Assembly (NCBI GenBank): GCA_023131225.1
Contig: JAGLZW010000013.1
Location: forward strand, 46,878 to 110,877
From: Candidatus Bathyarchaeota archaeon
GTDB taxonomy: Archaea > Thermoproteota > Bathyarchaeia > Bathyarchaeales > SOJC01
Length of the DNA stretch: 64,000 nucleotides
Reading direction: 5' to 3'
A model generated the notes under the pieces. It saw only the letters and a program-made list of their open reading frames with translations, ran no database searches and was not told where the DNA came from. This document shows, piece after piece, positions 44,422-60,529 of the stretch. A program made the position numbers and the translations under genes. Every line of letters begins with the position of its first letter. The first letter of the stretch is position 1.

Positions 44422-46041
44422 ATGTTATGGACTGAAACTTTGATGACAGTAAAAATCATCGGTCACGGCACATGGTACGACAAAGCAGCCGCCAGAATCA
44501 TAGAAAGGGAACATAAACTAGGACGCAGCCTTGACCTAATCCGAACAGAAATGGGTCTTGGCGCTTCAGGGCTACCTCATATCGGCAGTTTTGGCGATGC
44601 AGCAAGATCCTTCGCAGTAACATTAGCCCTGAAGGAACAAGGCATCAACTCTGAACTAATCGCATTTTCAGACGACAAAGACGGTTTGCGAAAAGTTCCA
44701 GCAGGCTTTCCTAAAACAATGAAAAAATACCTCGGCTACCCAGTAACAAGCATACCCGACCCCTTCAAATGCCACAACAGCTTCGGAGAACACATGAGCT
44801 CTCTACTACTAGAAGCCCTAGACAAATCCAACATAGAATACCACTTCATTTCAGCAGAAAAAGCTTACAAAGAAGGCTTGTTCAACGAAGAAATCAAAAC
44901 AATCCTCACAAACGCGAAACAAGTAGGCAAAATCGTGAAAGAAGAGGTAGGACAAGAAAGATACACCGAAGCACTACCTTATTTTCCAATATGTGGCAAT
45001 TGCGGGCGAATCTACACAACAACCGCCCACAAATTCTTGCCGAATGAAGAGAAAATACTGTACACGTGCAAAGGCATGGAAATAAAAGGAAAATGGCTCG
45101 AAGGCTGCGGATACCAAGGCGAAACGGACTACAGAGAGGGCGAAGGCAAACTGAGCTGGAAAAGCGAATTCGCAGTAAGATGGAAAGCCTTAGACATAAG
45201 GTTCGAGGCCTACGGAAAAGACATAGAAGACTCCGTGAGAATAAACGATAGAATCTGCCGAGAAATCCTAAAGTACGAACCACCGATGCACGCAAGATAT
45301 GAAATGTTCCTAGATAAAAGTGGAAAGAAAATTTCAAAATCCGCCGGAAACGTCTTCACACCACAAGTTTGGCTGCGCTATGGCTCGTCCCAATCACTAA
45401 TCTTGCTCATGCTAAAGCGCTTTGCAGGCACTCGCGAACTGTCGGTAGTAGATATTCCTCAATACATGAACGAATTCGATGAACTAGAGGACATATACTT
45501 CGGCAAGAAGCAAATCGCCAACAAGAAAGAACTTGCCAAACTGACAGGGCTCTACAAGTACTGCTGCTGGCTCAACCCCCCATCAAAGCCTAGCATCCAT
45601 ATGCCCTACAACCTCCTAGCATACATAACCAAAATCGCCCCCGAAAACAAAGAAACGGAATATGTCACCCAGAAGCTGCGAGAATATGGCTACCTAGAAA
45701 ACAAGGAATTACCGCTTAAAGCTCTAAAGAAGAGAATCCAATATGCTGTCAACTGGAACAACGACTTCATGGAAATAAAAGAAACCCAACTGAAACTCAC
45801 GGCAAACGAGACAGATGCAATAAAGGAACTTGTAGCAACTTTTCAAGGCAAAATAAATGCGGAAATAATTCAAAGCGCAATTTTCGACATCGCTAGAAAA
45901 TACAACATATCACCAAAAAGATTCTTCAAAATACTCTACACAATTCTCCTCGGAATACCTGCAGGTCCAAGACTTGGCCCTTACATAATTGCCATGGGAA
46001 AACAAAACGTCACCGAAGCTCTACAGCGAGCTATTAACTAA
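44422..46041 (+). CDS. lysS: Lysyl-tRNA synthetase, class I
   Basis: A 539-residue class I (archaeal-type) lysyl-tRNA synthetase. LPHIGSFGD (about residues 51-59) is the HIGH signature, and KKISKSAGN (about 309-317) is KMSKS. Between them are CGNCGRIYTT and YTCKGMEIKGKWLEGCGYQG, the cysteine-rich zinc insert, and KALDIRFEAYGKDIEDSV. The helical C-terminal domain binds the tRNA-Lys anticodon. The start is ATG 44422 or ATG 44443; no strong ribosome-binding site is seen. It attaches Lys to tRNA-Lys in the cytoplasm. Archaea use either class I or class II enzymes, so this helps show archaeal affiliation. Confidence 0.94.
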   Translation: MLWTETLMTVKIIGHGTWYDKAAARIIEREHKLGRSLDLIRTEMGLGASGLPHIGSFGDAARSFAVTLALKEQGINSELIAFSDDKDGLRKVPAGFPKTMKKYLGYPVTSIPDPFKCHNSFGEHMSSLLLEALDKSNIEYHFISAEKAYKEGLFNEEIKTILTNAKQVGKIVKEEVGQERYTEALPYFPICGNCGRIYTTTAHKFLPNEEKILYTCKGMEIKGKWLEGCGYQGETDYREGEGKLSWKSEFAVRWKALDIRFEAYGKDIEDSVRINDRICREILKYEPPMHARYEMFLDKSGKKISKSAGNVFTPQVWLRYGSSQSLILLMLKRFAGTRELSVVDIPQYMNEFDELEDIYFGKKQIANKKELAKLTGLYKYCCWLNPPSKPSIHMPYNLLAYITKIAPENKETEYVTQKLREYGYLENKELPLKALKKRIQYAVNWNNDFMEIKETQLKLTANETDAIKELVATFQGKINAEIIQSAIFDIARKYNISPKRFFKILYTILLGIPAGPRLGPYIIAMGKQNVTEALQRAIN

Positions 46042-46131
46042 TAATAACTCTAAAAATTCCTTTGCCTCGTATTACTGAACATTGAAAGTTGAATGAAACT
46101 TCAAAGTGAAAAATAATGGGAGGTTCACAGA

Positions 46132-46578
46132 ATGAACGTTAATGAAAAAGAAATTGCAGAGTACTTGGAGAAATGGCAGGCTATTTTAAGATTGCGAGAT
46201 TGGGACATAATAGTCAAAATGGTCAAAACCCCTTGGAGAAAGTCTGCAGACATAAAAATCGATCTTGAAGATAAAAAAGCAGTCCTTTTAGTGAGTTGCA
46301 ACCCAAAGTGCGAGAATCTGGAAGAGCTGGTTATCCATGAGTTGCTTCATCTAAAATTGTATGGAATGGATCAAATAATTGAAGAACTCCTGTCTATTGT
46401 CTATGGCGAGAAAGAGGAAGATCCAAAAAAAGAGTTTGCTAGTACACAATTCATGAAGCTCCTAGAATCTACAGTTGAAGATTTAACTAAAGGCTATTTA
46501 ACAGCAGTCAATAGTCAGAAAATGCTATCATTTGGAAGATTGCAGAAGGCTATTGATGAAGAGATTAAGAACAACTAG
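46132..46578 (+). CDS. Small zinc-dependent metallopeptidase-like protein
   Basis: A 148-residue protein with VIHELLHLKLYGMD, an HExxH zinc motif near residue 67, preceded by RLRDWDIIVKMVK and a beta strand (AVLLVSCNPKCENLEEL). The layout resembles small minimal-gluzincin proteins (ImmA/DUF45-like), in which the third ligand lies about 40-50 residues later. Candidates such as E in QFMKLLESTVEDL are seen. GGGAGG at about 46117-46122 precedes ATG 46132. Targets unknown. It lies 5' of tRNA-Arg, and the next HExxH gene lies just after that tRNA. Confidence 0.7.
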   Translation: MNVNEKEIAEYLEKWQAILRLRDWDIIVKMVKTPWRKSADIKIDLEDKKAVLLVSCNPKCENLEELVIHELLHLKLYGMDQIIEELLSIVYGEKEEDPKKEFASTQFMKLLESTVEDLTKGYLTAVNSQKMLSFGRLQKAIDEEIKNN

Positions 46579-46820
46579 AACATGGTTAGTAGCCCTATTG
46601 GTACAGAAGAAGAAAAGTCTAGCAGACTCTACAGAATAAAAAGAACCTAAACTTCCATTTTCAATTCTTTAGTAACATCTTTCTAGGAAATTTATGAAAG
46701 AAAGGTTATGCACGTACATATTCCTCAATGTTCCCTTACTCCATCTAAAACTTCTAAATTTTATTAATGTGTTAATGGCTTTCTCTTTAGTATGCTCAGA
46801 ACACTATAATCCAGTTGAGA

Positions 46821-46896
46821 GGGCCCGTAGTCTAGTCTGGATTTGGACGCTGGCCTGCGGAGCCGGAGATCTGGGGTTCAAATCCCCACGGGCCCG
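46821..46896 (+). tRNA. tRNA-Arg (GCG anticodon)
   Basis: GGGCCCG at 46821-46827 pairs with CGGGCCC at 46889-46895; discriminator G at 46896; CCA encoded at 46897-46899. The anticodon arm CTGGC-CTGCGGA-GCCGG gives anticodon GCG. The T arm TGGGG-TTCAAAT-CCCCA is perfect. No intron is seen. argS follows about 460 bp downstream, and an exact antisense copy of its last 19 nt lies after argS at 49378-49396. Confidence 0.93.
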
Positions 46897-46975
46897 CCAC
46901 TATTTTGGTTGTCACGAAATGGTTTTGCATTTTTGAGCTGTATCTATTGTGAGAATATTCTGTAATTCGCAAATA

Positions 46976-47239
46976 TGGATATATTTCCTTTTTTCTACGT
47001 GTTTATTGAAGAGGACTTGGAAGATGCGAAATGGAAGGCTGCAGTTTCGTTTCTGTTTCCCACCTATTTATGGTATTTATGACACTGGCGGAGGCGTAAT
47101 CTATGTTTTCGGTGAGCACGATGGTAAAATTGAAGATGTTTTGAGTCATGAAGTATTACACTGGGCTGTGCAAGAAATCGCGGGAAAACAGGCAAGTTTA
47201 GATTTGGATAATGTTCCGCCCAAATTATTGAGAATGTAG
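46976..47239 (+). pseudogene. Frameshifted small HExxH metallopeptidase-like gene
   Basis: Two overlapping frames fit together only with a shift. Frame A begins at ATG 46976 and reads MDIFPFFYVFIEEDLEDAKW-KAAVSF, then drifts into a stop at 47080. Frame B holds the HExxH motif (DVLSHEVLHWAVQEIAGK) and ends at 47239; it opens at ATG 47024 with GAGG 9 nt upstream, but its first residues (RNGRLQFRF) are unlike a protein N-terminus. A one-base indel near 47,060 would join A and B into a protein of about 88 residues. Either a frameshift mutation/assembly error or an actual short gene from 47024 is possible; I favour the frameshift. Confidence 0.45.
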
Positions 47240-47359
47240 CCTAGAAAAACTAGTTCGTTTCTCGTTTTTTCTCGCTGTCAAACAATTTATTAGTTACGTC
47301 AGAAGAGGATTTTCTGCAAAGTTTATGAGGCTGTATAAGTTCTCATAGGTGGTCGCAAT

Positions 47360-49309
47360 ATGGTTTCCATCAACCCTTTCGGTGATTTTCAGAGAGATTG
47401 TGAAAAGGCTTTAAGAAAGGCTCTTACCGAAATTTATCCTGGCATCTCTGTTGAATCTTTTTTATTAGCTGTTCCGCCTACTCCGGAATTTGGTGAATTG
47501 GCTTCATCTATTTGTTTTGAGCTTGCTAAAAAATTAAAAAAGCAGCCTCGTGAAATCGCAGATCAAATCGTTGAAAATATTATTATAGAAAGTTTTCCGA
47601 TAATCAAAAACGTGAAAGCTGCTGGGAAAGGATATATTAATTTTTATTCAGATTTTGCAGAACTTTCTGCTTTAGTCATCCAATCTATTCGCATCTTGAA
47701 TAATGAGTACGGCTATGTTAAGACAGACAAACCTCGGAAAGTCATAGTGGAACACACAAGCGTTAATCCTATTCACCCGATTACTATTGGGCAAGCAAGA
47801 AACCCTGTTTTAGGTGATGCCCTGGCCCGTATTTTGAAAGCTCGGGGCCATACAGTGGCTCGTCACTATTATGTGGATGATGTTGGCCGACAAACTGCAA
47901 TCGCAGCCTTTGCATATGACAAGTTGGGTGAACCTAAACCTGAAGAAAAGCCGGACCATTTCGTAGGCAACATTTACACTGTAGCAAGTTGCATTATAGA
48001 GATAAATCGGCTGAAAAAGGAAGCTGAAAAAACACGAGACAAGACTACTGATGAAGACGCCCGAGAACTTCAGCGAAAACTCGACGATTGGATAATTATC
48101 TCAAAAGAGTTAAAAAACAGATTTCCACAAATTTTCAACAAACTCCTTAAAGAAACAATAAAAGATGAGAACCTAGAGCAAACTGTCAGCAGCTTGAACC
48201 GTGCTTACGAAGCCGGAGAAGAAAAAGCAAAACATTTGGTGCGCCAAGTCTGTAAAATGTGTCTGGAAGGATTTAAACAGACTCTCAGTAGAGCTGAAAT
48301 TTTCTATGACTCTTGGGACTGGGAAAGCGACTTTGTTTGGAACAATGAAGTTGCAAAAAACCTAGACAAATTAAAGAAAACCCCGTACGTTTTCCAAGAA
48401 GGCGGCGTTATCGAGTTCGACGCAGAGAAAGTTGCAAAGAATTTAAAATTGAAAGAAATCCTTGGTATAAAGAAAGATTACGAGATCCCTTCCCTGACCT
48501 TGATTAGATCCGATGGAACAACACTTTACACTACAAGAGACATTCCATACAATCTGTGGAAGTTCAAGAAAGCTGAGAAAGTAATCAATGTCATCGGAAT
48601 GGAACAAAAACTACCACAACAACAATTGAAATTGGCCCTATGGGCTTTAGGACATGCCAACCAAGCAAAAAATCTTACACATTTCGCCTACAATCTGATA
48701 ACTCTTCCAGATTATAAGATGTCTAGCCGTAGAGGACGCTACATAACCCTTGACGAAGTGATGGATGAGGCTATAAAGAGAGCCCGTGAAGAAGTGGAAA
48801 AACGTTCACCACAACTTGCCGATGAAGAAAAGTCGAAAATCTCGAAGATAGTTGGAATCGGGGCTCTGAAATATGCTCTCGTTGAAGTTGACCCCGTAAA
48901 ACCCGTAGTTTTCACTTGGGACAGAGTGATAGACTTCGAAAGAAATAGCGCCCCTTACATTCAATATTCTCATGCGCGAGCCCTCAGCATTTTGAGAAAA
49001 GCAAAAAGAGAACCAGAGAAACCGGACTATTCACTACTAGAAGAACCAATAGAACACAACCTTGTTTTGGCGCTTGCACGCTTCCCAGAAGTCTTCGTCA
49101 ATTCTGCAGAAAACCTAAAACCCAACGCGATAGCCGACTATGCAAACATTCTAGCCGACAAATTCAACAGCTTTTACAATGCCTTACCTGTATTAAAAGC
49201 GAAGCCGAAAACACTAAGCGACGCAAGGCTGGCACTAGTCGAGGCGATCAGAATAGTGCTCAGAAATTCATTGAATCTAATCGGCATTGTAGCACCCAAA
49301 AAAATGTAA
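47360..49309 (+). CDS. argS: Arginyl-tRNA synthetase
   Basis: A 649-residue class I synthetase with the ArgRS N-terminal Add-1 domain (about 1-115), catalytic domain and DALR anticodon-binding C-terminus (RNSAPYIQYSHARALSILRKA). MSSRRGRYITLDEV is the KMSKS-loop equivalent. The HIGH position reads HPITIGQARN (139-148), where homologues have (P)LHIGHARN, so both HIGH histidines appear replaced by Thr142 and Gln145. AGGTGGTC lies about 8 nt before ATG 47360. It attaches Arg to tRNA-Arg; tRNA-Arg(GCG) lies just upstream on the same strand. Retained catalysis is expected from context but unproven. Confidence 0.92.
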   Translation: MVSINPFGDFQRDCEKALRKALTEIYPGISVESFLLAVPPTPEFGELASSICFELAKKLKKQPREIADQIVENIIIESFPIIKNVKAAGKGYINFYSDFAELSALVIQSIRILNNEYGYVKTDKPRKVIVEHTSVNPIHPITIGQARNPVLGDALARILKARGHTVARHYYVDDVGRQTAIAAFAYDKLGEPKPEEKPDHFVGNIYTVASCIIEINRLKKEAEKTRDKTTDEDARELQRKLDDWIIISKELKNRFPQIFNKLLKETIKDENLEQTVSSLNRAYEAGEEKAKHLVRQVCKMCLEGFKQTLSRAEIFYDSWDWESDFVWNNEVAKNLDKLKKTPYVFQEGGVIEFDAEKVAKNLKLKEILGIKKDYEIPSLTLIRSDGTTLYTTRDIPYNLWKFKKAEKVINVIGMEQKLPQQQLKLALWALGHANQAKNLTHFAYNLITLPDYKMSSRRGRYITLDEVMDEAIKRAREEVEKRSPQLADEEKSKISKIVGIGALKYALVEVDPVKPVVFTWDRVIDFERNSAPYIQYSHARALSILRKAKREPEKPDYSLLEEPIEHNLVLALARFPEVFVNSAENLKPNAIADYANILADKFNSFYNALPVLKAKPKTLSDARLALVEAIRIVLRNSLNLIGIVAPKKM

Positions 49310-49377
49310 CCGTAGCTCTAATGTTTCACAGATAATTTAGGAATAATTCATTTCTCGTTTCTGAGCTCTGGTTAGAA

Positions 49378-49396
49378 GTGGCGGGCCCGTGGGGAT
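49378..49396 (-). repeat. Antisense copy of the last 19 nt of tRNA-Arg(GCG)
   Basis: The plus-strand 49378-49396 is an exact reverse complement of 46882-46900, covering the T-stem 3' strand, acceptor 3' strand, discriminator and CCA of tRNA-Arg(GCG). Bases beyond it do not resemble tRNA. Two readings are possible: a leftover attachment site of an integrative element whose tRNA lies outside the window, or a functional antisense element in the argS 3' region. Confidence 0.8.
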
Positions 49397-49489
49397 GCAC
49401 TCGGTGTGGCGAGCGGATACCAACCTCATAGTTATGTGTGTGTGGGCTTAAAATTTAATCCAACCAACCAACCAAGCTGCTTTTAATAG

Positions 49490-49526
49490 CTGACGCTTGA
49501 GCCTGAATATGGAAAGCAAGCGTCAG
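49490..49526. repeat. 10-bp perfect inverted repeat
   Basis: CTGACGCTTG (49490-49499) and CAAGCGTCAG (49517-49526) are exact reverse complements with a 17-nt spacer; CTGACGCTCG at 49541-49550 is a third copy with one change. It may form a hairpin in a readthrough transcript or bind a regulator of the Argonaute operon. Confidence 0.55.
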
Positions 49527-49680
49527 TATGATATTGCTCGCTGACGCTCGCAACTGAAAATGGACCGAAAGTTGAAAGACTCAAAGGCAATTGTAACAAT
49601 CAAAAATCCTTCTAGATTGAAATCATAATGTAGTTATTCCAAATTATGTTAAAATAGCAGAAGAATATTTTTTTAATGAC

Positions 49681-49691
49681 ATTTTTAATTA
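49681..49691 (+). promoter_or_regulatory. TATA-like box of the helicase-Argonaute operon
   Basis: ATTTTTAATTA lies about 30 nt before GTG 49721, giving a nearly leaderless transcript. The surrounding region (49650-49700) is strongly AT-rich, so exact position is uncertain. Confidence 0.4.
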
Positions 49692-49720
49692 CTTATTAGT
49701 GTATTACTTCAATATTCTCA

Positions 49721-51415
49721 GTGAGATGTTTTAATTTGGGTAATCCAATAGTAATTTCTGAAGAAGAGTGTTTTCGAGCTTTCCTCAGGACAGAACCTAA
49801 ACCTTACCAGAGGAATATTATTAAAGAACTCATTGTTGAACTGGCAAAAGGTAAAGATGTTGTCCTTCAACTTCCTACGGGAACTGGAAAGACGTTTGTG
49901 TATTTACCTGTGGCAATTACGGCAGCAGCTAACGATTACAGAGTAGCAATTTTAACTGCTACCAATCTCATTATTGACCAGATCGTTGGCAAATACTTAC
50001 CATATTTCAGAACAGACCCTGAAGTTTATGCTGCAAAGGGCATAGAACACTATTCATGTCATATCACAAATAATAAAGCAGAATATACTACATGTACGCG
50101 TGAACAGAGAAGTCTTTGTGAAACGGAAAATCCAGAGTGCGCTGTTATATACACCAACAAACAACTTGAAGAACATCAATTAATCTTAACAAACTTCCAC
50201 AAATTCTTGTCAGTACCAACTTCGCGAGGATTCGATTTTGTGGTGATCGATGATTCTCATGGTTTTGAGAACGCACTTTCGGATAAGTTTCAAACTAACA
50301 TATCTTATTATCAAATCGAAAAACTCTACCGTGAACACGAATCAAAAGAAGATACAATCTCCGATTTTGCAGGAAATTTCCTAGACTCCTTTGACGATGC
50401 ATTTAGAACTGTACCTCCAAAGGAGTTCAAAAAAAGAGTTCCAGAAGATATAATTAAAGAAATTGCGCAAATGGAAGGCTACGACGAAGTTTTGGGACAA
50501 TTGTCGACTCTCGATGAACTTGAAAAGGGTGTATTCTATAATTTATTGTATTTCGTAAAATGTTGCAAAAATACTAGCTTGAACACGTTTTACATTCAGA
50601 AAGATTATTACTTTCCAGATAAGCCTCAGGAGGCAAATCTTATAGCAAGAAGCTCAGAAGTTTTTCAAAAGCACATAATAAAATCCCTTTTTGGCAATTC
50701 ACTGGTTCTATTTGTTAGTGCAACTCCCGGAGATGTTTACACACATGCAAAATATTGTACTCATAAAAAGTATTCGGAAGATGATATTGTAATCTTACCC
50801 TACTCTTATCCTCCAGTTGTTGAAAATTGGTTTAAAAACCTCGAGATTTATGAGACACAGGATTTTCCAGAAGACCCGATCGAGAATGGCATAGAGATAG
50901 CTGCAACCATCATAAAAAAGACTAAAGGAAAGGTTCTCTTACTTTTCAAGAGTTATAGAGATCAACGTAGAGCGGAATCCTTCTTAAGAAAATTGGTACC
51001 TCGAAAAATAGTGTTTATTGATGAGAGTTATCAAAACGAGTTGGTTCAGGAGTTAGTCGAAAAAGCAGACATAATAATGGCAACAGCTTCCTCGAGGTTA
51101 TGGGAAGGAATAGACATAAGCGATCTGAAAATGGAAATAATTTTTTCCTTGCCCTTCATAAGACCACCTGTCTATCTTGATTCAACAAAATCTTTTCCAT
51201 TTGTTAGACGAAAAATGCTGATTAGGCTTCAACAAGGCATAGGGAGATTGATTAGGAAAGAAAATGACAAAGGAGTTTGTGTAATTCTCGACAACAGGTT
51301 AAAAAAATACAAGAACAGCAAAAATTTCTCTGACTTTTTCCGTGAACGGATATTCCCTGTAAGTGTAAATGAACTAATAGAAAAAATAGAAAACAGTTTC
51401 GGAAGTAGAGAATAA
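49721..51415 (+). CDS. XPD/DinG-like SF2 helicase with predicted Fe-S cluster
   Basis: A 564-residue helicase. The Walker A motif LPTGTGKT is at 51-58. Four cysteines follow in the position of the XPD/DinG Fe-S domain: C113, C125, C133 and C140. The DEAH box position reads IDDSH (176-180), a DEAH variant with Ser. Motif V is RLWEGIDI and motif VI is QQGIGRLIRKENDKGVCVILDNR, the XPD/DinG-type ending. Homologues move 5' to 3' on single-stranded DNA. It is the first gene of an operon, with its stop overlapping the Argonaute ATG by one base (TAATG). GTG 49721 is the only workable start. It probably unwinds DNA for, or is recruited by, the Argonaute; that role is inferred. Confidence 0.85.
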   Translation: MRCFNLGNPIVISEEECFRAFLRTEPKPYQRNIIKELIVELAKGKDVVLQLPTGTGKTFVYLPVAITAAANDYRVAILTATNLIIDQIVGKYLPYFRTDPEVYAAKGIEHYSCHITNNKAEYTTCTREQRSLCETENPECAVIYTNKQLEEHQLILTNFHKFLSVPTSRGFDFVVIDDSHGFENALSDKFQTNISYYQIEKLYREHESKEDTISDFAGNFLDSFDDAFRTVPPKEFKKRVPEDIIKEIAQMEGYDEVLGQLSTLDELEKGVFYNLLYFVKCCKNTSLNTFYIQKDYYFPDKPQEANLIARSSEVFQKHIIKSLFGNSLVLFVSATPGDVYTHAKYCTHKKYSEDDIVILPYSYPPVVENWFKNLEIYETQDFPEDPIENGIEIAATIIKKTKGKVLLLFKSYRDQRRAESFLRKLVPRKIVFIDESYQNELVQELVEKADIIMATASSRLWEGIDISDLKMEIIFSLPFIRPPVYLDSTKSFPFVRRKMLIRLQQGIGRLIRKENDKGVCVILDNRLKKYKNSKNFSDFFRERIFPVSVNELIEKIENSFGSRE

Positions 51416-53676
51416 TGAGTGTCAATTTCAATGTAAATCTATTCGAGTTGAAGACTTACAAGCCCTTCAAAGTGAATATTTATGATCCTGAGCTAACTCC
51501 CTCTCCAGAAAACATGTATCACTTCTATCAGGTTTTAGCGAAATTAGCCCAGAAGCTAACCCGATCATTGAAAACAGCAGTTATTTCTGATTCAGGTAAA
51601 ATCAAAGTACTCGAGGAATCAATCAGTGAACAAGAATTCCAGAATGAAGTTGAACTTAAAAATACAGCCACTTACAACGTAAAGTTGAAACCAGCAGGCG
51701 AAGAGCATATCGTTTTTGCAGAGTCACCCTTGGAATATGGAAGATTGGTAAGCAAGATTGTTGACCTAGCTCTAGTTCACTTATCAAATGATTATTACAA
51801 GTATAGCATTTTTTCACCCTTCATAATGGAAAGAGGTGAAGGATACTTTGATGAGGGACTTCGAGAGAGGATAGGAATCGAAGACGGCAGAAGATATTAT
51901 AGAGGAATTCGTGTCATGGATGGGATTCCTCACCTGATTCTAAATAGAGAAATTGAGTTGAGATCATGGAAGAATCTACTGAATGAATTGAAGGTATTTG
52001 CTGAATGGTGGGGGACCATTAAAAACAAAAAAATCGATTTTTATGACCCACCTAAAGATTTCGTGAAGTTTGCTAACTGGGTTTTTTTGAACCGGAGAGC
52101 AAGCGTAAAAGCATATTCTGCTCGGTCACTTTTCATTCGCGAAATAACATGGGACTATCGAGCCGAGAGTAAGATCTTGGAAGGCAACATTTCTCCATGC
52201 GATTATCACAAAAAAGTTCAAGGAATAATTATTAAAGACAAAAAGCAACCCCTCGTGAAGTGGCAGATGATTACCCCGGAAGGCGAAAAAAGGGATCAAT
52301 TTCATGTTCCCGAGTTGCTTGTGGTTGGACATACATTCAAAGATATCAGGATGAGAGTCTCAAAATCTCAAATCTCTCAAGTTTTTGACATACTTCATCC
52401 GCATTGTGGAGATCAACTTAGAAAGATTCTCGAGCTAACTAAAAAAATCGATGATATTTTAAGAACCAGATTTCGAATTATCTATCCCAACAAGCTCGAG
52501 TTCTCTGTTTTACCAAAAGAAGTGGATAAGAATGTTACATCATCATCTGTGGCCATAAAGTTCGGTAATAAAGAAACGGATATTGAGCCTCCTTTTGGTA
52601 TCAATTTTTATCGAAAGTATTCCAAGACAACGACTTTTGTTAAACCAACGCCAGAAAGAATAAAGATCCTTGCTGTTTGTGAAGAAATACATCTACCCTT
52701 CATAGAAAAGTTGAAAAAGGAACTCGAAGTTAGAAACAATTCCGAAGTCAGTATTTCTCACATTTTGGAAATAGACTTTGAGGCGGTAACTCCTTCTTTT
52801 GATCTATTAATAACGGTGACAGATGATGAAGAAATTATGAGGAAATGTAAGAGCATTATTATCAATCATTTTGGAATAGCTCATCAGAATGTGACACCAA
52901 AGAATGCTATGGATAAATCTATTCCGCAACTAGTTATGCAGATAACCTTAAAACTTGGAGGGTGGCCTTGGGTCCTAAAGAATCCTGAAAAGGTTACGGT
53001 TTTATCGATATACGCATATAGAAATCCCATCACTTCGGTGAAATTTTATCTTTTTAACTTAATGAAACCAGAAGGAGAGATTATTTTTCAATCTAAACCT
53101 TTTGAAAATGGCATAGATTTTCTTAAGGAACTGAAAGCAAGTACAAAAAACATTGATAAACTACTAATACTGTCGTCTTTTATCGACCAACAACTTCAGG
53201 AATTTCTCCTTGATGAGATCGGTTCCATAATCCCAGAATTTATCTTTATCCAAATAAAACAGAGAGACGAACTCAGATTATTCTCCACATTCAGACCGGT
53301 TATAAAAACTCAGAGGCGGAGAAGAAAGCCCACTGTAATCTTTCCTATAGAAGCATATGAAGAAGTTCCTGAAGGATCCATCTTGAGATTTGCAGACGAC
53401 GAGTACTATTTATTGACAACAGCATCTACAAAAGTGGGTACATATCACAGAGGTTGTCCAAATCCAATTAGACTCAAGATACTCGGAAGCAAAGGTATTT
53501 TTAACAAAGATAAAATTCTTCATTACATCCTTTCTCTTTCGCTCGTTTCTGGGACCAGTGGACATGAAACAAAGCTACCAGCTCCGCTATACTATATGAA
53601 GAGATATGCTGGTTATGTTAACGAATATGGTCTGCCAAGCAATGAGAAGATTTTCAGAACACTTTTTTATGTCTGA
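51415..53676 (+). CDS. Prokaryotic Argonaute, long form, predicted catalytically inactive
   Basis: A 753-residue protein with Argonaute layout: N and L1 (1-190), a PAZ-like region (about 190-310, with VKWQMITPEGEKRDQFHVPE), MID (about 410-500, FGIAHQNVTPKNA with the 5'-end-binding Gln) and PIWI (505-753). PIWI starts with LVMQITLKLGGWPWVLKNP, the characteristic lead-in, and ends HRGCPNPIRLKILGSKGIF followed by LPAPLYYMKRYAGY. The DEDX tetrad is lost: the first Asp position reads SIYAY (531-535), the second reads ILSSFID (585-591, no RDG), and the final His/Asp reads LYYM. It may therefore use guide nucleic acid to recognise DNA and recruit the flanking helicases. The operon is tight: 1-bp overlap upstream, 5-nt gap downstream. 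Confidence 0.85.
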   Translation: MSVNFNVNLFELKTYKPFKVNIYDPELTPSPENMYHFYQVLAKLAQKLTRSLKTAVISDSGKIKVLEESISEQEFQNEVELKNTATYNVKLKPAGEEHIVFAESPLEYGRLVSKIVDLALVHLSNDYYKYSIFSPFIMERGEGYFDEGLRERIGIEDGRRYYRGIRVMDGIPHLILNREIELRSWKNLLNELKVFAEWWGTIKNKKIDFYDPPKDFVKFANWVFLNRRASVKAYSARSLFIREITWDYRAESKILEGNISPCDYHKKVQGIIIKDKKQPLVKWQMITPEGEKRDQFHVPELLVVGHTFKDIRMRVSKSQISQVFDILHPHCGDQLRKILELTKKIDDILRTRFRIIYPNKLEFSVLPKEVDKNVTSSSVAIKFGNKETDIEPPFGINFYRKYSKTTTFVKPTPERIKILAVCEEIHLPFIEKLKKELEVRNNSEVSISHILEIDFEAVTPSFDLLITVTDDEEIMRKCKSIIINHFGIAHQNVTPKNAMDKSIPQLVMQITLKLGGWPWVLKNPEKVTVLSIYAYRNPITSVKFYLFNLMKPEGEIIFQSKPFENGIDFLKELKASTKNIDKLLILSSFIDQQLQEFLLDEIGSIIPEFIFIQIKQRDELRLFSTFRPVIKTQRRRRKPTVIFPIEAYEEVPEGSILRFADDEYYLLTTASTKVGTYHRGCPNPIRLKILGSKGIFNKDKILHYILSLSLVSGTSGHETKLPAPLYYMKRYAGYVNEYGLPSNEKIFRTLFYV

Positions 53677-53681
53677 TTCCA

Positions 53682-55136
53682 ATGAAGTTACTATCAAAGG
53701 AACAGTGGTTTTCTAAATTAGAGGACTTTTCAATTCCTTTTCGGAAATATGGGTCTTTTCTGCCTGAACAGAGAAAATTATTAGAAGAGGTTTATGACAA
53801 ACTTACGAATTCCCAAAAACCAATATTAGTTTTTGTCGCTCCTACAGCATCGGGCAAAACGCATACGATATGCCTTATTGCACGAACTCTTCAAGAAAAA
53901 AATTATCGTATCGCCATATTAGTTCCGAACAACTATCTTAAGGAGGAATATAAGAAGGCTCAGCATGATGTGCGTGGACGGCTTCAAGATATTGATTTCC
54001 TAAACATCTTCGAGTATCTCAAGACTACGAAACAATACAATTTCGTCTTAGCTGACGAAGCACATAATCTGAAAACCTTTCTGGAACTAGATAGAAACAT
54101 TGTCAGAAGTATAGATTTTACAGAAAAAGAAGACTTATTTTTCGACATCGCAAGCAGACATCTACCTCCAAACAAATCTTTTATTGCCAAACAGTTATCG
54201 TTCAACTCTGCAAGAGAGTTGTTAGACGATCTAGATAATATTCCAAAATTCTCAAAGTATCTCAGACCAATTATTCAAAACCCAACCTCATGGATCAGCT
54301 TCATTTACATATGGAGGCAAAACAAACGGTGCTCAATTAAGTTTGTCCGCTCATCAGATTATTTATGTAAACTCAAACTCCCGATGGATCGCATACTAAT
54401 GTTTTCTGCTTCACCATTGTCAGACAAAGAGCTTCAGTTCTACTGTGGGATTCCTGCAAGTAGTATCGAACGAGCGACTCCGATAAAAACAACAGCAGAT
54501 TGGAGAAAGAAACAAAGTGTTTATTTTTCAGTGATTGACGAGCTTAGTTCGAAAGATAAGACAAGCCTTCTTGAGGAACTAATTCGAGAAACTAAAACGA
54601 GAACGCTAATTCTCTTTAACAACTTCGATAGCTGTAAAAAAACATTCAAAAGTCTCGGTAAGATTTTTGACAATATTACAATGATTCCTCCCGCACCGTT
54701 AATGATTAACCTGCAGAAATTCAACGATTTCCTAAGCTATCGTAACGGTACCCTTTTAACAGCATCAACAGTTTTCTGGGAGGGAATCACCATTGAGTGC
54801 CTTAAACTTGTTATAATAACGGATCCGCCGTATCCTAGACCTACTCTTGTAGATCTTGTCAAGAAGAAACGTATCTTTGGGAAACAAGACATTACCCGTA
54901 GACTTCAACAGGGACTTGGGCGTATAGCAAGGAGACAAGGTGAATATGGCATAGGAATATTATTATTTGACATAGAAAAGCATTGTAAGGAAGTCCAGAA
55001 TATTGTTGGAAAGAACAGAGTTCTTAGAATGAAATCACCTCAGTGCCTTCTTGTTCTCCACAAAATATTTACTGATAAATCTCCCTCTTTAGATATGTTC
55101 ATTTCCTCAAAATGTAGCGAAAGTTCACACATTTGA
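53682..55136 (+). CDS. SF2 helicase (DinG-like) without Fe-S cysteines
   Basis: A 484-residue helicase. Walker A is APTASGKT (53-60), the DEAH box is DEAHN (125-129), motif V is FWEGITI, and motif VI is QQGLGRIARRQGEYGIGILLFD, showing the same DinG/XPD-like ending as the upstream helicase. It lacks the four-cysteine insert. The two helicases are therefore not simple duplicates; the shorter one may form a heterodimer or act on a different polarity. ATG 53682 is 5 nt after the Argonaute stop, indicating co-translation. The C-terminal tail is short, and no nuclease domain is visible. Role in the system inferred from operon structure. Confidence 0.82.
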   Translation: MKLLSKEQWFSKLEDFSIPFRKYGSFLPEQRKLLEEVYDKLTNSQKPILVFVAPTASGKTHTICLIARTLQEKNYRIAILVPNNYLKEEYKKAQHDVRGRLQDIDFLNIFEYLKTTKQYNFVLADEAHNLKTFLELDRNIVRSIDFTEKEDLFFDIASRHLPPNKSFIAKQLSFNSARELLDDLDNIPKFSKYLRPIIQNPTSWISFIYIWRQNKRCSIKFVRSSDYLCKLKLPMDRILMFSASPLSDKELQFYCGIPASSIERATPIKTTADWRKKQSVYFSVIDELSSKDKTSLLEELIRETKTRTLILFNNFDSCKKTFKSLGKIFDNITMIPPAPLMINLQKFNDFLSYRNGTLLTASTVFWEGITIECLKLVIITDPPYPRPTLVDLVKKKRIFGKQDITRRLQQGLGRIARRQGEYGIGILLFDIEKHCKEVQNIVGKNRVLRMKSPQCLLVLHKIFTDKSPSLDMFISSKCSESSHI

Positions 55137-55353
55137 AAAATTGAGATGTGATATTTTAGAAATGATCAACCTCGTTTTTATCCGTATTGAAATTCACCAT
55201 CTTTGGACCTAAATTCAGTCAGAACTATCTCAAATGGAGACTTACTCGTGCGCACACAGTTTATTTTGAACCCATTACGACTTTTCAGGCAATGATGGTT
55301 AAAAGGTAGATGAGATCAAATTGAAATGCGCGCGCGAAATCTATTCAACTAAA
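55137..55353. other. Convergent intergenic spacer with CG-alternating tracts
   Basis: The spacer between the Argonaute operon and the AlbA_2 gene holds two alternating purine-pyrimidine tracts: GTGCGCACACA (55248-55258) and TGCGCGCGCG (55325-55334). Both are unusual in AT-rich flanking DNA; similar tracts occur at 56829-56840 and 57371-57378. No gene is seen. Confidence 0.4.
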
Positions 55354-56721
55354 TCACTGGTCATGCAAGAATGTATAGAGGTTCAATATGAAACGATAAT
55401 TGTCACTTGGTATGTTCTTTTTTGAATCTTTAATCTTCTCGTAACTGCTTCTTTCCAACCCTGTTTCCGTTCTGATTGGACACGAAATCTTTCCGGTTTG
55501 ATCTTTGACCGAGATTACATCCTTTGTTTGGGCTACGGCAATTGCTAGACAACTCTTATCCCTTCCATCCTCATCTTTCATTGGTATTTGCTGACAGTGA
55601 GTGAAGCCAGTATTATAATTAACATGTCTCCTAAGAACGTTCTTGGCATCTTTTATTCTATTTTCCATATCCTGAACCCCCAAGATTCTTCTTGGTGGTT
55701 CATCTGTGACACCTATAATCAGGACTCCACCATTTGTATTTGCGAAGCTAGCGATTTGCTCGCAAAACTTAAACTCGGCTTTCTCTCTTTCCCTGTGTCT
55801 TGGATGCCACATTTCTAAAGTTGCTTTGAAATCCCATAGTTGATTTTCGATTCTATTGCTACTCATGGCCTTCATTATGAAGGATTTCCAAAAGGATTCT
55901 CTGTATAGTAGTTTCATTTGATCATTATACTTTTCGATGTCGAGAATGATATTCCTCAAGGATTGGCGAAGAAACTCAAAATAGGTAGCAAGTTCAGAAA
56001 GAACTCTGTGAAAAGTTCGACCGAGAACTCTTTGCTTGGGGGGCACCGGAATTGGACCCGGATATTCATCATCAAGTGATTCGGCAATCTCATAGAAAAT
56101 GTCAGAATAAACCGTTCCTATTGTGTAAATCTGGTCTATTCGTAAACCAAGAGCCACTTCCACACATTTCTTTACTGTCTCATGATCTTCATCAATAGTA
56201 TTCGCAGTAATCCTTATCACTCGCTCTGAAAGTCTTGTTGATCCCCAAACTCTATAGGCAAATAATATACGTGGCGCAAGAACATCCTTTTCGTGTAACC
56301 ACAATACATAGTCATACAAATCATGGATTTCTTTCTTGTGATCTTTCGTAAAGTTATGAATTTTTCTTATTAGATCCGAATACGACTTTGGAGCAGATTT
56401 GCTCTTTAATGCAAATGAATCTTCTTTTAGTTTTTGAGCAGAACTCAATACGACTTCAGTCTTTTTTCTTAACTCTTCAACTTCCGTTTCCCTTCTATAA
56501 ACCCACCAGTTAATTTCATCGGTCCCAACTTCTTCACCAAAAGGTGTCACCTCCAATAGTACATTGCTATGTTCGCCCTTTTTCCTAATTTCGCATCTAC
56601 TGTCCATCTCAGTATCAGCTTTCTGAATATACCAGTGAATTTTACCTATTTCCCACGATGAGCCGGAGAATAGCTCATCATGACACTTAATCTCATCTTC
56701 ATAACCATTTGGAACCAACAC
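55354..56721 (-). CDS. Schlafen AlbA_2-domain protein
   Basis: A 455-residue protein. The C-terminal third (about residues 290-400) holds a Schlafen AlbA_2 domain with WDFKATLEMWHPRH, FCEQIASFANTNGGVLIIGVTD and RRILGVQDMENRI, a fold that binds or cleaves RNA or binds ATP in homologues. The N-terminal two thirds is helical with no clear match. GTG 56721 is preferred: GAGG precedes it by 9 nt, and a TATA-like GATTTTATAC (minus strand, 56772-56781) lies about 50 nt upstream; the longer frame reaches 56856. The gene is convergent with the Argonaute operon and may be part of the same defence island. AlbA_2 proteins are found in several antiviral systems. Confidence 0.78.
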   Translation of the reverse strand: MLVPNGYEDEIKCHDELFSGSSWEIGKIHWYIQKADTEMDSRCEIRKKGEHSNVLLEVTPFGEEVGTDEINWWVYRRETEVEELRKKTEVVLSSAQKLKEDSFALKSKSAPKSYSDLIRKIHNFTKDHKKEIHDLYDYVLWLHEKDVLAPRILFAYRVWGSTRLSERVIRITANTIDEDHETVKKCVEVALGLRIDQIYTIGTVYSDIFYEIAESLDDEYPGPIPVPPKQRVLGRTFHRVLSELATYFEFLRQSLRNIILDIEKYNDQMKLLYRESFWKSFIMKAMSSNRIENQLWDFKATLEMWHPRHREREKAEFKFCEQIASFANTNGGVLIIGVTDEPPRRILGVQDMENRIKDAKNVLRRHVNYNTGFTHCQQIPMKDEDGRDKSCLAIAVAQTKDVISVKDQTGKISCPIRTETGLERSSYEKIKDSKKNIPSDNYRFILNLYTFLHDQ

Positions 56722-57429
56722 TTCTTCTTTCCTCGTTCTTCTAGTCCTTGTCGATATAACTAGAATGAGCGTGTATAAAATCTTATCAGAAGCTTTAGCT
56801 TTTAATAAAAAGAGTTGTAAATAGGTTTGCGCACACGCGCTGTAAGTATTGTCCAAGACTGCGCATGTATGTTATTTATCCAGGGTTTGACAGATTTTTG
56901 ATAGAATGTCCCATGCTTTTACAATACATCTAACTTTGCGCGCACAATCGATAAGCAAGGAAAGAAGTGTTAAAGGTGAGACTATAGAAGTGCCTTAGAT
57001 TCAAATAGATGACTGGTTAGGCTGTTCACATAGAAGAAGGTACAGAGCTTTGGCCTCTATATGCTTAGAACACTTAGGACACTAGTGGCGCTATACTACA
57101 GAAGAGGCAGCTCTACGTGGACCTCCCCAACAAGACAAAACACTTTACAGTCCCTATGTGAAACAATAGTTCTATACTGTGCTTAAACAAGAATCTGCCT
57201 CTATAGATTCTATCCATAGCGCTCTATAGCGGATTGATAGAGCTGTATAGAAAAAGCCTTATCAAGCATATAATAGGAAAATCAAACGTTTCTACACTAG
57301 TCTATGACAGAGCTGTGTAGCTCCTATGCAGCTCTGAGGTCAGAGTCAGTAGAGGAAGGTATTGGACTCTTGTGTACGCGCGCTTCCTTAGATGGATTGA
57401 TTGGCTCACCATATTTTACACTCCTATCT
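56722..57429. other. Gene-free 700-nt region with short repeats
   Basis: Apart from the AlbA_2 promoter it holds no supported gene. It has several copies of AGCTCT/AGAGCT-type elements, including CAGAGCTG (57307-57314) and CAGCTCTG (57328-57335), an exact 8-bp inverted repeat, and several CTCTATAG or TATAGAGC-like pieces near 57196-57250. CG-alternating tracts lie at 56829-56840 and 57371-57378. A regulatory or non-coding RNA element cannot be ruled in or out. Confidence 0.45.
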
Positions 57430-60402
57430 TCAAGATGAAATGCCTTGTTGTTTTTTTTCTCGTCTAGAGAATAAACCTCGCTTTTCAAGCTTTCTTATTC
57501 TGGAATGTATAGCCCCGCGTGTTCGTTTGTGTCTCTTCGCCAATTCAGTAATGGAAATGCCTTTTTTGTACTCTTCTAATAATTCATTGTCTTCTTCAGG
57601 CTCCCAAATTTCATAGGCTTTTAGGTGAGCTTCCTTGAGTCCTTCAACCGAATTGGGGTCTTTTATCTCTTTTATTTGATTATTCGATTTCATTTGAGTG
57701 AGAGGCTCTTCAGTAGTGTAGTCAGTAATTTCATTGAGAAACTTACTCATCGCTGATTCCCTTGTATATATGTACAGGTCTTCCATCGCTCGAGTAATAG
57801 CTACATAGAACAGTCTACGTTCTTCTTCTAGAGGGTTTTGTGGAGGGTAATCCTCTCTTGCAGGTTCATAAATAGCTGGGTCCTCTATCTGACATGGAAA
57901 ACCATAGGTGTCTTCAGTAGCATTGAGCAGAAATACCACTTTGGCTTCCAATCCTTTACTTCGATGTGCGGTAAGTAATCGAACTTCATTCTCTGTATGC
58001 ACTCTATCATATGCAAGTTGCAGCTCACTTTCTTTTGCTCTATCCATCAAAGCCTTAACGTATGAAAGAAACTTGTATCCACGAGGTTTAGTTTTGGTTC
58101 GCATGCATCGGCTCAGTACAAGTATATCGCTAGGAGAGCACCCATTCTGAATATAATGTTGAATTCGGTCTACGCAATCTTCAGCAATTTGAACATCGTT
58201 GTCGTATTCATAATCTGTTGGAGCGACCTTGAGAATTTTTATTGGTCGAATCTGAGGGGTGTGTGATTGGGCAGGTTTCTGGATTTGACAACTGGTGTTA
58301 TTTTTGATAAGTGCTGCTCCAGCATCAACAATGGTCTTAATGCTTCGATAGTTGGTAGAGATTTTTGTGATGGCTGGATTCGCAAAATATTGGTCGAAGT
58401 TAACGAAGAAATTCAGGTTGGAGCCTGCGAATCCCATTATGCTCTGCCAATCATCTCCAACACAAAAGAGTTTGCAGTCAGGATTTCGCTCCATTAATTT
58501 TTTAATTAGTTTGTAACGTTGAGCGCTTATGTCTTGATATTCGTCGATTAGTATATGGTCGTATAAATTAGCTCGCAGATTCGGGTCATCCTCGAGTTTT
58601 GCGATAGCCTTGTTTATCATATCTTCGAAATCAATCCTTTGAGATTCTCGTAAGGCTTCTTCATACGCAGAAAATATTGGAAGCACAAGATTACCAAAAG
58701 CAATCTGCTTAGATAACCAGTTACCATTGCGAAGTTTTTGTGCGATATTTTCAGGTCGTAGACCATAAGTCTTGGCGATAGTTATGAAATTTTGAATATC
58801 ATCTACAGGAGTTCTGTATGATTGCCATGCGACATCTAAAATTTCCTCATAGCTCTTGAGAGTGAATTCGAAATTTTTACCATACATCTTTTGAAGTGCG
58901 GTGGTAACCCTTGATTTTACTACTTCGAAGAAGTCATAAGGGTTATTCTCGTCATACTCATAAGCGAAGGTCTCAATAAGCACTTTGTCATGGTCAGCCA
59001 GCCATTGCTTTTTCATTTCCATAGCATGTTTATATTCTTCTGTAGTCTGATTGAACCAGTTAGGAACTTCGCCTTCTTTGGTAAGACCCCAGTGTTCAAT
59101 AAATATGTCGTACTCAGGCAGATGAAAATCAGGGAGAAATCCACCTATATCAGGTTCGTACCTTATTGCTATAGCTCTCCCATTCAGTTTATGCATTAAA
59201 AAGAAATCCATAATCTCCTTTTCAGCTCGACTGTTCACCTGAGTGTTATCAATGGAAAAGTAGGGACGTTCACGTGCATATGCAAGGTTTTCTTCTTTTT
59301 CTTCATCTCCTTCGTTTATCTCCTTGTCATGGAGAGTTCGAACGAAGTCCAAGAATAATTGATAGTATTGAGATTCATTCTTGACTTTCTGTTTGAAAGC
59401 TCTACTAATTATATCATGTTTTCTGTTATTATTAACGATGTCAGTATGGACAAAATAGTCGCCAGTTTCTTCCAGAATGTCTTTTCCAAGTTTGTGGAAT
59501 GTTTTTACATTGACATTTTGAATGTTGTGCCGTTTGTATAGCCGCTGTTCTATTTGTTCCATAGCTTTTCTTTGGTAGGCGATGGCTAGAATTCTCTGAG
59601 GGTGAACAGTGTCAGGTTTTCTAGTAATCAGATATGCGGTTCTTGTGGTCAGAACTTCGGTTTTGCCTGAGCCTGCAGCTGCTACCACTAGATTATGTTT
59701 ATCATCTGTTACTATTGCTGTTTGCTGTTCGTCATCCAGAGATAAGGAAGCATTATTCCAGAGATGTTCGTAATCTTTTTTTCGTTGTTGTACGAATTTA
59801 GTGTTGTATTCTAAAATAATCTGGCGAGATTCAGTTAGCTTTTCTAATTGCTTTCCTATGAATTTCTCGTTGAAGATATTTTTTTGTTTACAGGTTGTTA
59901 AGTCATTCTCAAATGATTTAATCGAATTAATACATTGTTGCTTGTCCGAGTGTATTAGATAGGTACCACTGTTTAGGATTGATTCAACCTGTTGATATAC
60001 AATGTTTTCTTTCTGTTTAATTAAATTCTTAGTGTGGTCTAGAATTAGCTCATGTTTCTTTCTCAATTCTTCTTCCAGTTCTGCAGTCAGACTATGCATG
60101 CCGCTGAATTTCTCTTTGAAGGTTTCTATTCTTTCTTGCAGTTCTCTAAGAATGACAAAGTTATCGGTTATCTCTTCAATCCGATTATTTACATGCACCA
60201 AATCGTGGAGGTGTGTGACTATGGTTTGAATAATTGATTGATTCTGCGAAGTAAGCTCTTGAATCTTCGTTTCTGTGTCTCTACCTATAAAAAAGCCAAT
60301 TAGAATGAATTTTAGATATTTCCGTAGATGTTTAAGTCTATGCTGTTTCTTTATTTCCTGCAGATTTTCTAATATTTCTTCAACAGCAGTTCTTAAGTTC
60401 AT
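57430..60402 (-). CDS. UvrD/HelD-like SF1 helicase with embedded PD-(D/E)XK-like nuclease
   Basis: A 990-residue protein. Residues 1-215 form a hydrophobic-then-coiled-coil N-terminus. SLDDEQQTAI and AAAGSGKTEV (241-250) begin the helicase; IDEYQDIS, VGDDWQSIMGFAGS, LTAHRSKGLEAKVVFLLNA and RLFYVAITRAMEDLYI are the other SF1 motifs. Inserted at about 389-480 is a restriction-nuclease-like domain: E394 in NSRAEKEI, PDF at 424-426 and E436 in FIEHWG. The last 50 residues contain a helix-turn-helix (TELAKRHKRTRGAIHSRI). Cleavage coupled to unwinding is likely in similar proteins. It may be the nuclease of the island. ATG 60402 is the start. Confidence 0.88.
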   Translation of the reverse strand: MNLRTAVEEILENLQEIKKQHRLKHLRKYLKFILIGFFIGRDTETKIQELTSQNQSIIQTIVTHLHDLVHVNNRIEEITDNFVILRELQERIETFKEKFSGMHSLTAELEEELRKKHELILDHTKNLIKQKENIVYQQVESILNSGTYLIHSDKQQCINSIKSFENDLTTCKQKNIFNEKFIGKQLEKLTESRQIILEYNTKFVQQRKKDYEHLWNNASLSLDDEQQTAIVTDDKHNLVVAAAGSGKTEVLTTRTAYLITRKPDTVHPQRILAIAYQRKAMEQIEQRLYKRHNIQNVNVKTFHKLGKDILEETGDYFVHTDIVNNNRKHDIISRAFKQKVKNESQYYQLFLDFVRTLHDKEINEGDEEKEENLAYARERPYFSIDNTQVNSRAEKEIMDFFLMHKLNGRAIAIRYEPDIGGFLPDFHLPEYDIFIEHWGLTKEGEVPNWFNQTTEEYKHAMEMKKQWLADHDKVLIETFAYEYDENNPYDFFEVVKSRVTTALQKMYGKNFEFTLKSYEEILDVAWQSYRTPVDDIQNFITIAKTYGLRPENIAQKLRNGNWLSKQIAFGNLVLPIFSAYEEALRESQRIDFEDMINKAIAKLEDDPNLRANLYDHILIDEYQDISAQRYKLIKKLMERNPDCKLFCVGDDWQSIMGFAGSNLNFFVNFDQYFANPAITKISTNYRSIKTIVDAGAALIKNNTSCQIQKPAQSHTPQIRPIKILKVAPTDYEYDNDVQIAEDCVDRIQHYIQNGCSPSDILVLSRCMRTKTKPRGYKFLSYVKALMDRAKESELQLAYDRVHTENEVRLLTAHRSKGLEAKVVFLLNATEDTYGFPCQIEDPAIYEPAREDYPPQNPLEEERRLFYVAITRAMEDLYIYTRESAMSKFLNEITDYTTEEPLTQMKSNNQIKEIKDPNSVEGLKEAHLKAYEIWEPEEDNELLEEYKKGISITELAKRHKRTRGAIHSRIRKLEKRGLFSRREKKQQGISS

Positions 60403-60529
60403 ATCACTTTGAACGCCTTTAACAATTAATATGGATTAGGATTAGATAGTTCATGAGTCTTTTGGTTCAGTTTAGTGTATGTGTGCACATTACTTTTTTG
60501 CAGATACATTAATGAATTGAATCGCCGTC

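Follow-up and report, generated by a model that had tools for sequence, protein, structure and literature searches.

The Hel1-Argonaute-Hel2 locus

We analysed a stretch of 64,000 nucleotides (the window) from Candidatus Bathyarchaeota archaeon (GenBank assembly GCA_023131225.1, contig JAGLZW010000013.1, positions 46,878 to 110,877 of the forward strand), and describe here three adjacent genes on its plus strand. The first gene (49721..51415, GTG start) encodes a 564-residue iron-sulfur (Fe-S) XPD/DinG-like superfamily 2 (SF2) helicase, Hel1, recognised from the open reading frame (ORF) list and from Pfam and PADLOC matches. The second (51415..53676, ATG start) encodes a 753-residue Argonaute of predicted N-PAZ-MID-PIWI organisation, recognised from Pfam and a predicted structure, and the third (53682..55136, ATG start) encodes Hel2, a 484-residue helicase of XPD/DinG fold without an Fe-S domain. 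The Hel1 stop and the Argonaute start overlap by 1 bp within TAATG (51413..51417, plus strand), and Hel2 starts 5 nt past the Argonaute stop. The three genes are one tightly coupled unit, and the ORFs, the overlap and the gap are all as described in a first-pass annotation made from the sequence alone. The trio is confirmed as a conserved and unusual archaeal gene set, and its function is what we infer below.

A long Argonaute predicted to be inactive

Pfam assigned a Piwi domain to the Argonaute above the cut-off (9.2e-10) and a PAZ domain below it (2.4e-5; 24.7 bits against a cut-off of 28.8), and found no other match up to E 1. The sub-cut-off PAZ region (residues 212-308; 52048..52338, plus strand) aligns with the PAZ domain of Piwi. 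The predicted structure has a mean pLDDT of 89.7 and a pTM of 0.86, with only the short stretch 714-718 under 50, and residues 1-753 of the model align with the structures of Piwi, human Ago2 and HrAgo1. As modelled, the protein is a full-length, long Argonaute with all four domains, N, PAZ, MID and PIWI, including the MID-PIWI folds on which the first-pass annotation depended. Many rows of the fold ranking have Z scores within 1 of one another, so that no single nearest structure is claimed, and the absence of DdmE from the best 50 fold matches carries no weight either way. By sequence, the nearest match of the Argonaute family profile in the PDB search was a eukaryotic Piwi (8.4e-9).

The catalytic residues of PIWI were compared at three aligned places, namely the first Asp, the Asp of the RDG motif and the last His/Asp. 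In the window Argonaute these places hold Y533 (53011..53013, aligned with the D of GIDVYHD in Ephydatia Piwi), S588 (53176..53178, placed in alignment A4 with the Argonaute of a distant relative, G395) and K729 (53599..53601, aligned with the H of YAHKLA in Piwi), all on the plus strand. The catalytic residue is present in 0/35 rows of the family alignment at position 533 (Y26 L5 H3 K1), at position 588 (S25 T8 P1 N1) and at position 729, where neither H nor D occurs (K14 R6 G5 S5 Q3 E1 N1). The alignment represents the family of 39 proteins without P0001, a near copy, and without P0023, P0033, P0038 and P0039, which are short or fused. The Argonautes of three related loci (L003, L010 and L015) likewise lack catalytic residues at these places. 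Thus, the trio Argonaute is predicted to be catalytically inactive, in agreement with the first-pass annotation.

On the other hand, three MID residues (K479, Q491 and K513; 52849..52953, plus strand), which we take to form the guide 5'-phosphate pocket of Argonaute, are conserved in 35/35, 35/35 and 34/35 rows, respectively. Their conservation suggests that guide binding has been retained. The PADLOC model PprPIWI matches the window Argonaute (1.4e-15) and matches full length the Argonautes of L003 (6.5e-25) and G395 (6e-38), and the Argonaute family may therefore already have been collected by others.

Two other features were noted in the Argonaute. The motif RGCP (residues 679-682; 53449-53460) is invariant in the 35 rows and lies near the place of Piwi QGT. 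A basic run, RRRRK (residues 634-638; 53314-53328), lies in a lower-confidence loop and is conserved across much of the subgroup to which the window Argonaute belongs, but not in L003, L010 and L015.

Two XPD/DinG-type helicases without a nuclease domain

Hel1 matches the Pfam families Helicase_C_2 (4e-21), ResIII and DEAD, and its top defence-family match is the PADLOC model typeIV_DinG (PDLC01439, 3.8e-46), which covers residues 20-540 of 564. When searched against PDB, the Hel1 family profile matched archaeal XPD (1.9e-24) and DinG (4.9e-15). The putative Fe-S segment (50057..50140, plus strand) contains Cys codons 113, 125, 133 and 140, and these cysteines are conserved in 40/40, 40/40, 39/40 and 40/40 rows of alignment A2. 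By analogy with the family, the four cysteines would bind an Fe-S cluster, and with these cysteines and its SF2 motifs Hel1 belongs to the XPD/DinG family. Hel2 matches Helicase_C_2 (1.5e-9) and ResIII (1.5e-8), with helicase matches covering residues 2-453 of 484, and its predicted structure has the XPD/DinG fold and aligns with CasDinG. Inspection of the alignment found no Fe-S-type cysteine cluster in Hel2, which is an XPD/DinG helicase by fold and motifs without the Fe-S cysteines. The motor (ATPase) residues are invariant in both families. The division into a helicase with four Fe-S-type cysteines and a DinG-like helicase without them had been proposed in the first-pass annotation, and is borne out by alignment, fold and profile comparison.

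In a midpoint-rooted tree of 46 helicases, Hel1 proteins form one clade (support 95/94), Hel2 proteins form another (100/100), and 16/17 bacterial-type DinG rows form a separate group (100/100), with P0103 joining the G395 helicase. The Hel1 and Hel2 clades each separate L003, L010 and L015 from the window and L002. Profile comparison of Hel1 and Hel2 gave a probability of 99.9%, which is evidence of kinship alone. Duplication of Hel1 is a likely origin of Hel2 that this tree does not establish, given the length of the Hel2 stem (2.05) and the midpoint rooting.

Neither Pfam nor the defence-family scans found a nuclease domain in Hel1, the Argonaute or Hel2, and where a matched family also includes nucleases (ResIII, Cas3 and exonuclease-DinG), the match is confined to its helicase part. 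The earlier statement that no nuclease domain is visible in either helicase therefore agrees with the domain scans.

Conservation and linkage of the trio

The order Hel1-Argonaute-Hel2 was found in 5/5 distinct loci of the close family whose DNA was read: the window, L002 and L003 (Bathyarchaeota metagenome-assembled genomes), L010 (genome G184) and L015 (genome G437). Gene order in relatives, which the first-pass annotation had left to be checked, thus bears it out, and in none of these loci is the Argonaute separate from the helicases. The lowest identities to the window are 34.7% for the Argonaute, 32.5% for Hel1 and 30.6% for Hel2. Hel1-Argonaute junctions are overlaps of 1 bp or 4 bp, or 0 nt, and Argonaute-Hel2 junctions range from the 5-nt gap through to overlaps, some of which vary with the start chosen. 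An apparent stop codon inside the G437 Argonaute was rejected, as the ORF is intact and the TAA is by its coordinates the Hel1 stop just 5' of the start.

Among 256 genomes of the window's class, the Argonaute is present in 5 (E<=1e-3). At E<=1e-30, Hel2 is present in exactly these 5 and Hel1 in 6, namely the 5 plus one with a contig-edge fragment (a 266-aa frame beginning at base 5 of its contig). In an even draw of genomes from the phylum, a match to the Argonaute family (A1) occurs in 3/398, which are G184, the distant G395 and the genome of the window. As a control, we read 15 other Thermoproteota Argonaute loci (18 genomes with a Pfam Piwi match, less those of the window, G184 and G395); ORFs of the Hel1 or Hel2 family at E 1e-3 were found in 0/15 of the stretches read. 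The control is of limited weight, as 6 of the stretches are shorter than 8 kb and 5 of the 15 Piwi matches fall short of the Pfam cut-off.

To further explore the linkage, we compared the longest contigs of the protein clusters, equal size being taken to indicate the same contig, with 64 of 106 Hel1 matches used. The longest contig is exactly as long as that of a Hel1 and/or Hel2 cluster for 26/39 Argonaute clusters (one of them the fusion P0039, matched with itself), and 11 of the 26 match both. With eight shifted lengths as an offset control, only 0-2 coincidences were found per list pair. Protein distances for the three pairs are correlated (Mantel r 0.975, 0.956 and 0.930; 0/2000 permutations each) across 16 loci, 11 of them joined by longest-contig size, a correlation to which shared ancestry of the hosts would also contribute. 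In addition, P0039 is a natural fusion in which residues 1-418 match Hel1 and residues 463-699 match Argonaute residues 1-237. Its cluster has six member sequences, although it could conceivably still be an assembly fault.

Loss of the catalytic residues, and nothing more, would fit a group of genes in decay or neighbours brought together by chance. This explanation is refuted by the conserved gene order, the intact reading frames, the co-occurrence, the fusion and the correlated distances, and we give it almost no credence.

A distant Argonaute-helicase pair in G395

G395, a genome of the same phylum but of another family, encodes a 772-aa Argonaute (L011:9718-12036) followed after 9 nt by a helicase (12046-13701). 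The helicase is of the Hel1 family (A2 profile, 1.2e-66) and has, by eye, a four-cysteine stretch of the same kind; in the helicase tree it lies outside the Hel1 clade, grouped with P0103. The G395 pair resembles the trio in that an Argonaute adjoins a Hel1-family helicase. Unlike the trio, the Argonaute gene comes first, Hel2 is absent from the locus, and the Argonaute retains Asp at the three aligned catalytic places. Because the G395 Argonaute keeps its catalytic residues beside one Fe-S helicase, the dead Argonaute and the second helicase of the trio look derived, judging from these sequences.

A phmmer search of PDB with the G395 Argonaute ranked a eukaryotic Piwi first (2.3e-28, 102 bits), followed by HrAgo1 (8.4e-12, 48 bits), CpAgo (2.8e-10) and human Ago3 (3.8e-9); this PIWI likeness is a similarity ranking, not a tree. 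Among 81 genomes of the G395 class, 3 have a match, which is full length only in G395 itself. The G395 contig also holds type I restriction genes.

Genes around the trio

When all ORFs of at least 100 aa in the flanks read at six loci were compared with one another, the genes common to any two loci were solely members of the trio, the G395 pair and a further XPD-like helicase. In the window, the trio is followed on its 3' side by a minus-strand group (55354-62866) that encodes a Schlafen AlbA_2 protein, a UvrD-like helicase that ends in a helix-turn-helix, and an LmuB-like SMC ATPase; the end of the window is also the end of the contig. The neighbouring UvrD, Schlafen and SMC genes were considered as partners of the trio and rejected, since none recurs between loci. 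The suggestion of the first-pass annotation that the UvrD-like protein supplies a nuclease likewise fails, with no neighbour common to the trio loci in the flanks read.

Defence-family scans of chosen neighbours, which are part of all neighbours, found a match beside 4/5 trio loci. In the window the SMC gene is LmuB-like (1.4e-28) and the UvrD gene RTasHel/GajB-like; the other matches are Shedu SduA in L002 (5.9e-78), PDC-S28 (3.9e-112) and PDC-S71 (2.2e-50) in L010, and PDC-S70 in L015 (7.5e-19), a weak match to which Pfam assigns DUF3368. The other neighbours tested in L002, L010 and L015 have no defence match. Carriage of the trio as mobile-element cargo was also rejected, as searches of viral contigs (pattern-based), plasmids and phages found no relative.

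These distributions bear on whether the trio is a repair or replication module for chromosome maintenance instead of a defence unit. XPD/DinG helicases serve repair, which would fit such a role. Furthermore, a PIWI-RE knockout altered ciprofloxacin sensitivity (PMC10991935). The trio is, however, found in just 5/256 genomes of its class and is absent from G118, the sole other genome of the window's genus in the draw, and it has defence-type neighbours. We therefore regard a role in chromosome maintenance as decidedly improbable.

Proposed function of the trio

We propose that the trio is a conserved three-gene unit, likely for defence, in which a guided, inactive Argonaute loads two helicases without the use of a nuclease, and we hold this proposal tentatively, at a little short of an even chance. 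The Argonaute would carry a short nucleic-acid guide to invading DNA, open the target and pass it to Hel1 and Hel2, which would force the strands apart and displace polymerases. Such unwinding would block expression or replication of the invader without a nuclease of the trio's own. Host nucleases might finish the exposed single strands, and none is consistently encoded with the trio. XPD/DinG helicases move 5'-3', and Hel1 and Hel2, as members of this family, would be expected to have the same polarity. In the picture we prefer, the displaced strand would carry Hel1 and the opposite strand Hel2, and the two would depart from the Argonaute in opposite directions. Motors that share one polarity but sit on opposite strands would run away from the site in opposite directions, which may be the simplest reason for keeping two. 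We further suggest, as a possibility that is itself doubtful, that invading DNA is opened and silenced by two XPD-family motors, one for each strand, under the direction of a dead PIWI-like Argonaute. Such a nuclease-free system would be an Argonaute counterpart of type IV-A CRISPR, descended from an active Argonaute-helicase pair that lost slicing and acquired its second motor. In all of this, we infer the defence role, guide binding, recruitment, polarity and outcome.

The proposal of a guided, nuclease-free defence unit is favoured by the conserved order and tight coupling, the co-occurrence, the coincident contig sizes, the fusion, the correlated distances, the lack of any further gene common to the flanks read, the loss of catalysis with the MID residues kept, the Fe-S-type cysteines of Hel1, the invariant motor residues, the negative nuclease scans, the patchy occurrence (5/256) and the defence-family neighbours. 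It is also favoured by the fact that DinG is the established motor of guided plasmid clearance in type IV-A systems (PMC10450177), and that the best defence match of Hel1 is a type IV DinG.

Several observations weigh against the proposal. Interaction of the proteins, guide binding and defence of the cell are predictions. In the size test, 13/39 Argonaute, 39/64 Hel1 and 50/74 Hel2 clusters have no partner, and 22 of the 39 unmatched Hel1 clusters have a longest contig of at least 5 kb, which leaves room for solitary Hel1 genes. Among the unmatched clusters, 4 of the Argonaute, 17 of Hel1 and 21 of Hel2 reach less than 5 kb in their longest contig, and the test misses true trios, because the unmatched P0017 (the L002 Argonaute) and P0198 (the L015 Hel2) belong to verified trios. 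A nuclease may be encoded elsewhere in the genome. The position four residues before K479 is mostly Ile in the 35 rows, whereas Tyr, His or Arg is common there in other Argonautes, and the Ile could alter 5'-end binding. The Argonaute could also seek RNA as its target instead, because its nearest solved relatives by sequence are PIWI proteins, which are RNA-guided. Finally, no defence match was found in the one neighbour tested in L003.

Comparison with known systems

The closest working analogue of the trio, by comparison of parts, is type IV-A CRISPR, in which a guided complex acts with a DinG helicase. CasDinG moves 5'-3' and is required for type IV-A plasmid clearance (PMC10450177), and it loads onto the non-target strand of the R-loop (PMC11519345). 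Guided target recognition, an XPD/DinG helicase effector and nuclease-independent interference are features of type IV-A (PMC11519345) and are predicted for the trio. The likeness extends to the DinG-type helicases themselves, Hel1 by its match to PDLC01439 and Hel2 by the alignment of its model with CasDinG. Unlike type IV-A, the trio has an Argonaute in place of the Cas complex, and two helicases; and while the Fe-S domain of CasDinG is vestigial (PMC10450177), Hel1 has kept the Fe-S-type cysteines. No Csf/Cas complex was matched among six window proteins scanned, and the repeat families found in 46700-60500 have at most two copies each, unlike those of a CRISPR array.

The closest gene-level precedent is the bacterial pPIWI-RE/DinG/restriction endonuclease (REase) system, in which a PIWI protein, a DinG helicase and an REase are encoded in strict order (PMC3702460). 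Both that operon and the trio couple a PIWI-superfamily protein tightly with an Fe-S DinG-type helicase, the counterpart in the trio being Hel1. The order there is REase-DinG-PIWI (PMC3702460, PMC10991935), whereas the Argonaute stands in the middle of the trio. The pPIWI-RE protein has another N-terminal domain in place of N/PAZ (PMC3702460, PMC10991935), whereas the trio Argonaute has the Pfam Piwi match and the sub-threshold PAZ match; this speaks against membership, although the PprPIWI model of PADLOC does match the trio Argonaute. The trio also differs in having a second helicase and no REase: no restriction endonuclease domain was found in the three genes, and no neighbour recurs between the loci. 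The pPIWI-RE system points to an alternative in which R-loops on foreign DNA that is strongly transcribed or replicating are resolved or silenced, with the Argonaute as a sensor of RNA/DNA hybrids. A similar role has been proposed for pPIWI-RE, DinG-type helicases act on RNA/DNA hybrids (PMC3702460, PMC10450177), and the trio Argonaute is PIWI-like by sequence and in the fold ranking. Nevertheless, the MID residues and the PAZ region would favour a bound guide over hybrid sensing alone, and we think such control of hybrids rather improbable.

The first-pass annotation had viewed the trio as a possible archaeal DdmDE-like system. In DdmDE, a long Argonaute that is inactive and guided by DNA works with the helicase-nuclease DdmD, whose nuclease is a C-terminal PD-(D/E)XK domain (PMC12409362). 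The trio shares with it an SF2 helicase and a long Argonaute, predicted to be inactive here, and by analogy the guided Argonaute could recruit Hel1 to unwind a plasmid that an unlinked host nuclease then degrades. Consistent with this, DdmD translocates 5'-3' and loads on the non-target strand, and finishing of the plasmid by host nucleases is an open matter (PMC12409362). However, no counterpart of the DdmD nuclease was found in Hel1 or Hel2, no neighbour recurs, and there are two helicases instead of one. The Hel1 profile had no DdmD-named PDB match at E<=0.01, a weak point as the names are those of depositors, and no DdmD- or DdmE-named row appeared in the PADLOC and PDB matches, although whether these libraries include them was not checked. 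Because the nuclease feature of DdmD fails in the trio, membership is not upheld and the trio is not a DdmDE, though it may work partly like one; clearance of the DdmDE kind with a host nuclease seems unlikely to us.

The Asgard PIWI-like Argonaute HrAgo1 has an ordered catalytic tetrad and lies in an operon with an RNase III gene (PMC11217426), unlike the trio Argonaute, which lacks catalytic residues. PIWI-like signatures have been described in some archaeal and bacterial Argonautes (PMC12477606). The trio is not mentioned in the available parts of a review of bacterial DinG (PMC11981726), a survey of archaeal immunity (PMC12988326) and a survey of prokaryotic Argonautes (PMC6299218), and no published account of it was recognised in the mostly open-access literature, bioRxiv preprints excepted, which is not proof of novelty. 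The first-pass view that the combination is undescribed stands to this extent, but it had missed the precedents of pPIWI-RE (PMC3702460) and type IV-A (PMC11519345, PMC10450177).

Inactive prokaryotic Argonautes depend on partner effectors such as nonspecific nucleases (PMC11442185). If the proposed function is true, an Argonaute whose only conserved partners are two helicases would show that immunity beyond CRISPR can be effected by guided unwinding alone. The natural fusion and the fixed gene order point to a defined complex for purification. The G395-type pair, with its catalytic residues kept and eukaryotic PIWI nearest among solved structures, allows both an archaeal origin of PIWI and the loss of slicing to be tested inside a single lineage.

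Other features of the window

A search for a guide RNA with Rfam at gathering scores found just tRNA in 46000-57500, the fold of 49340-49570 scores no better than those of shuffled sequences (z 0.01), and the upstream regions of the trio loci have nothing convincing in common. The gap 5' of Hel1 (49310-49720) is a mosaic of genomic repeats. It contains an exact 20-nt inverted copy (49377-49396) of the 3' end of tRNA-Arg (46882-46901), a 75-bp stretch with 92% similarity to part of contig C2, and a further segment of about 140 bp, 87% similar to a stretch of contig C28, with an exact 37-nt hairpin.

The tRNA-Arg is flanked by small ORFs (46132-46578 and 46949-47239) with HExxH metallopeptidase-like motifs (HELLH and HEVLH), neither of which has a Pfam match above the cut-off. 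Farther upstream, an archaeal phage integrase (Phage_integr_3, 8.1e-12) is encoded at 20952-21950 on the minus strand, and its start, taken from the longest ORF, overlaps tRNA-Pro (21863-21940), which suggests an integrated element.

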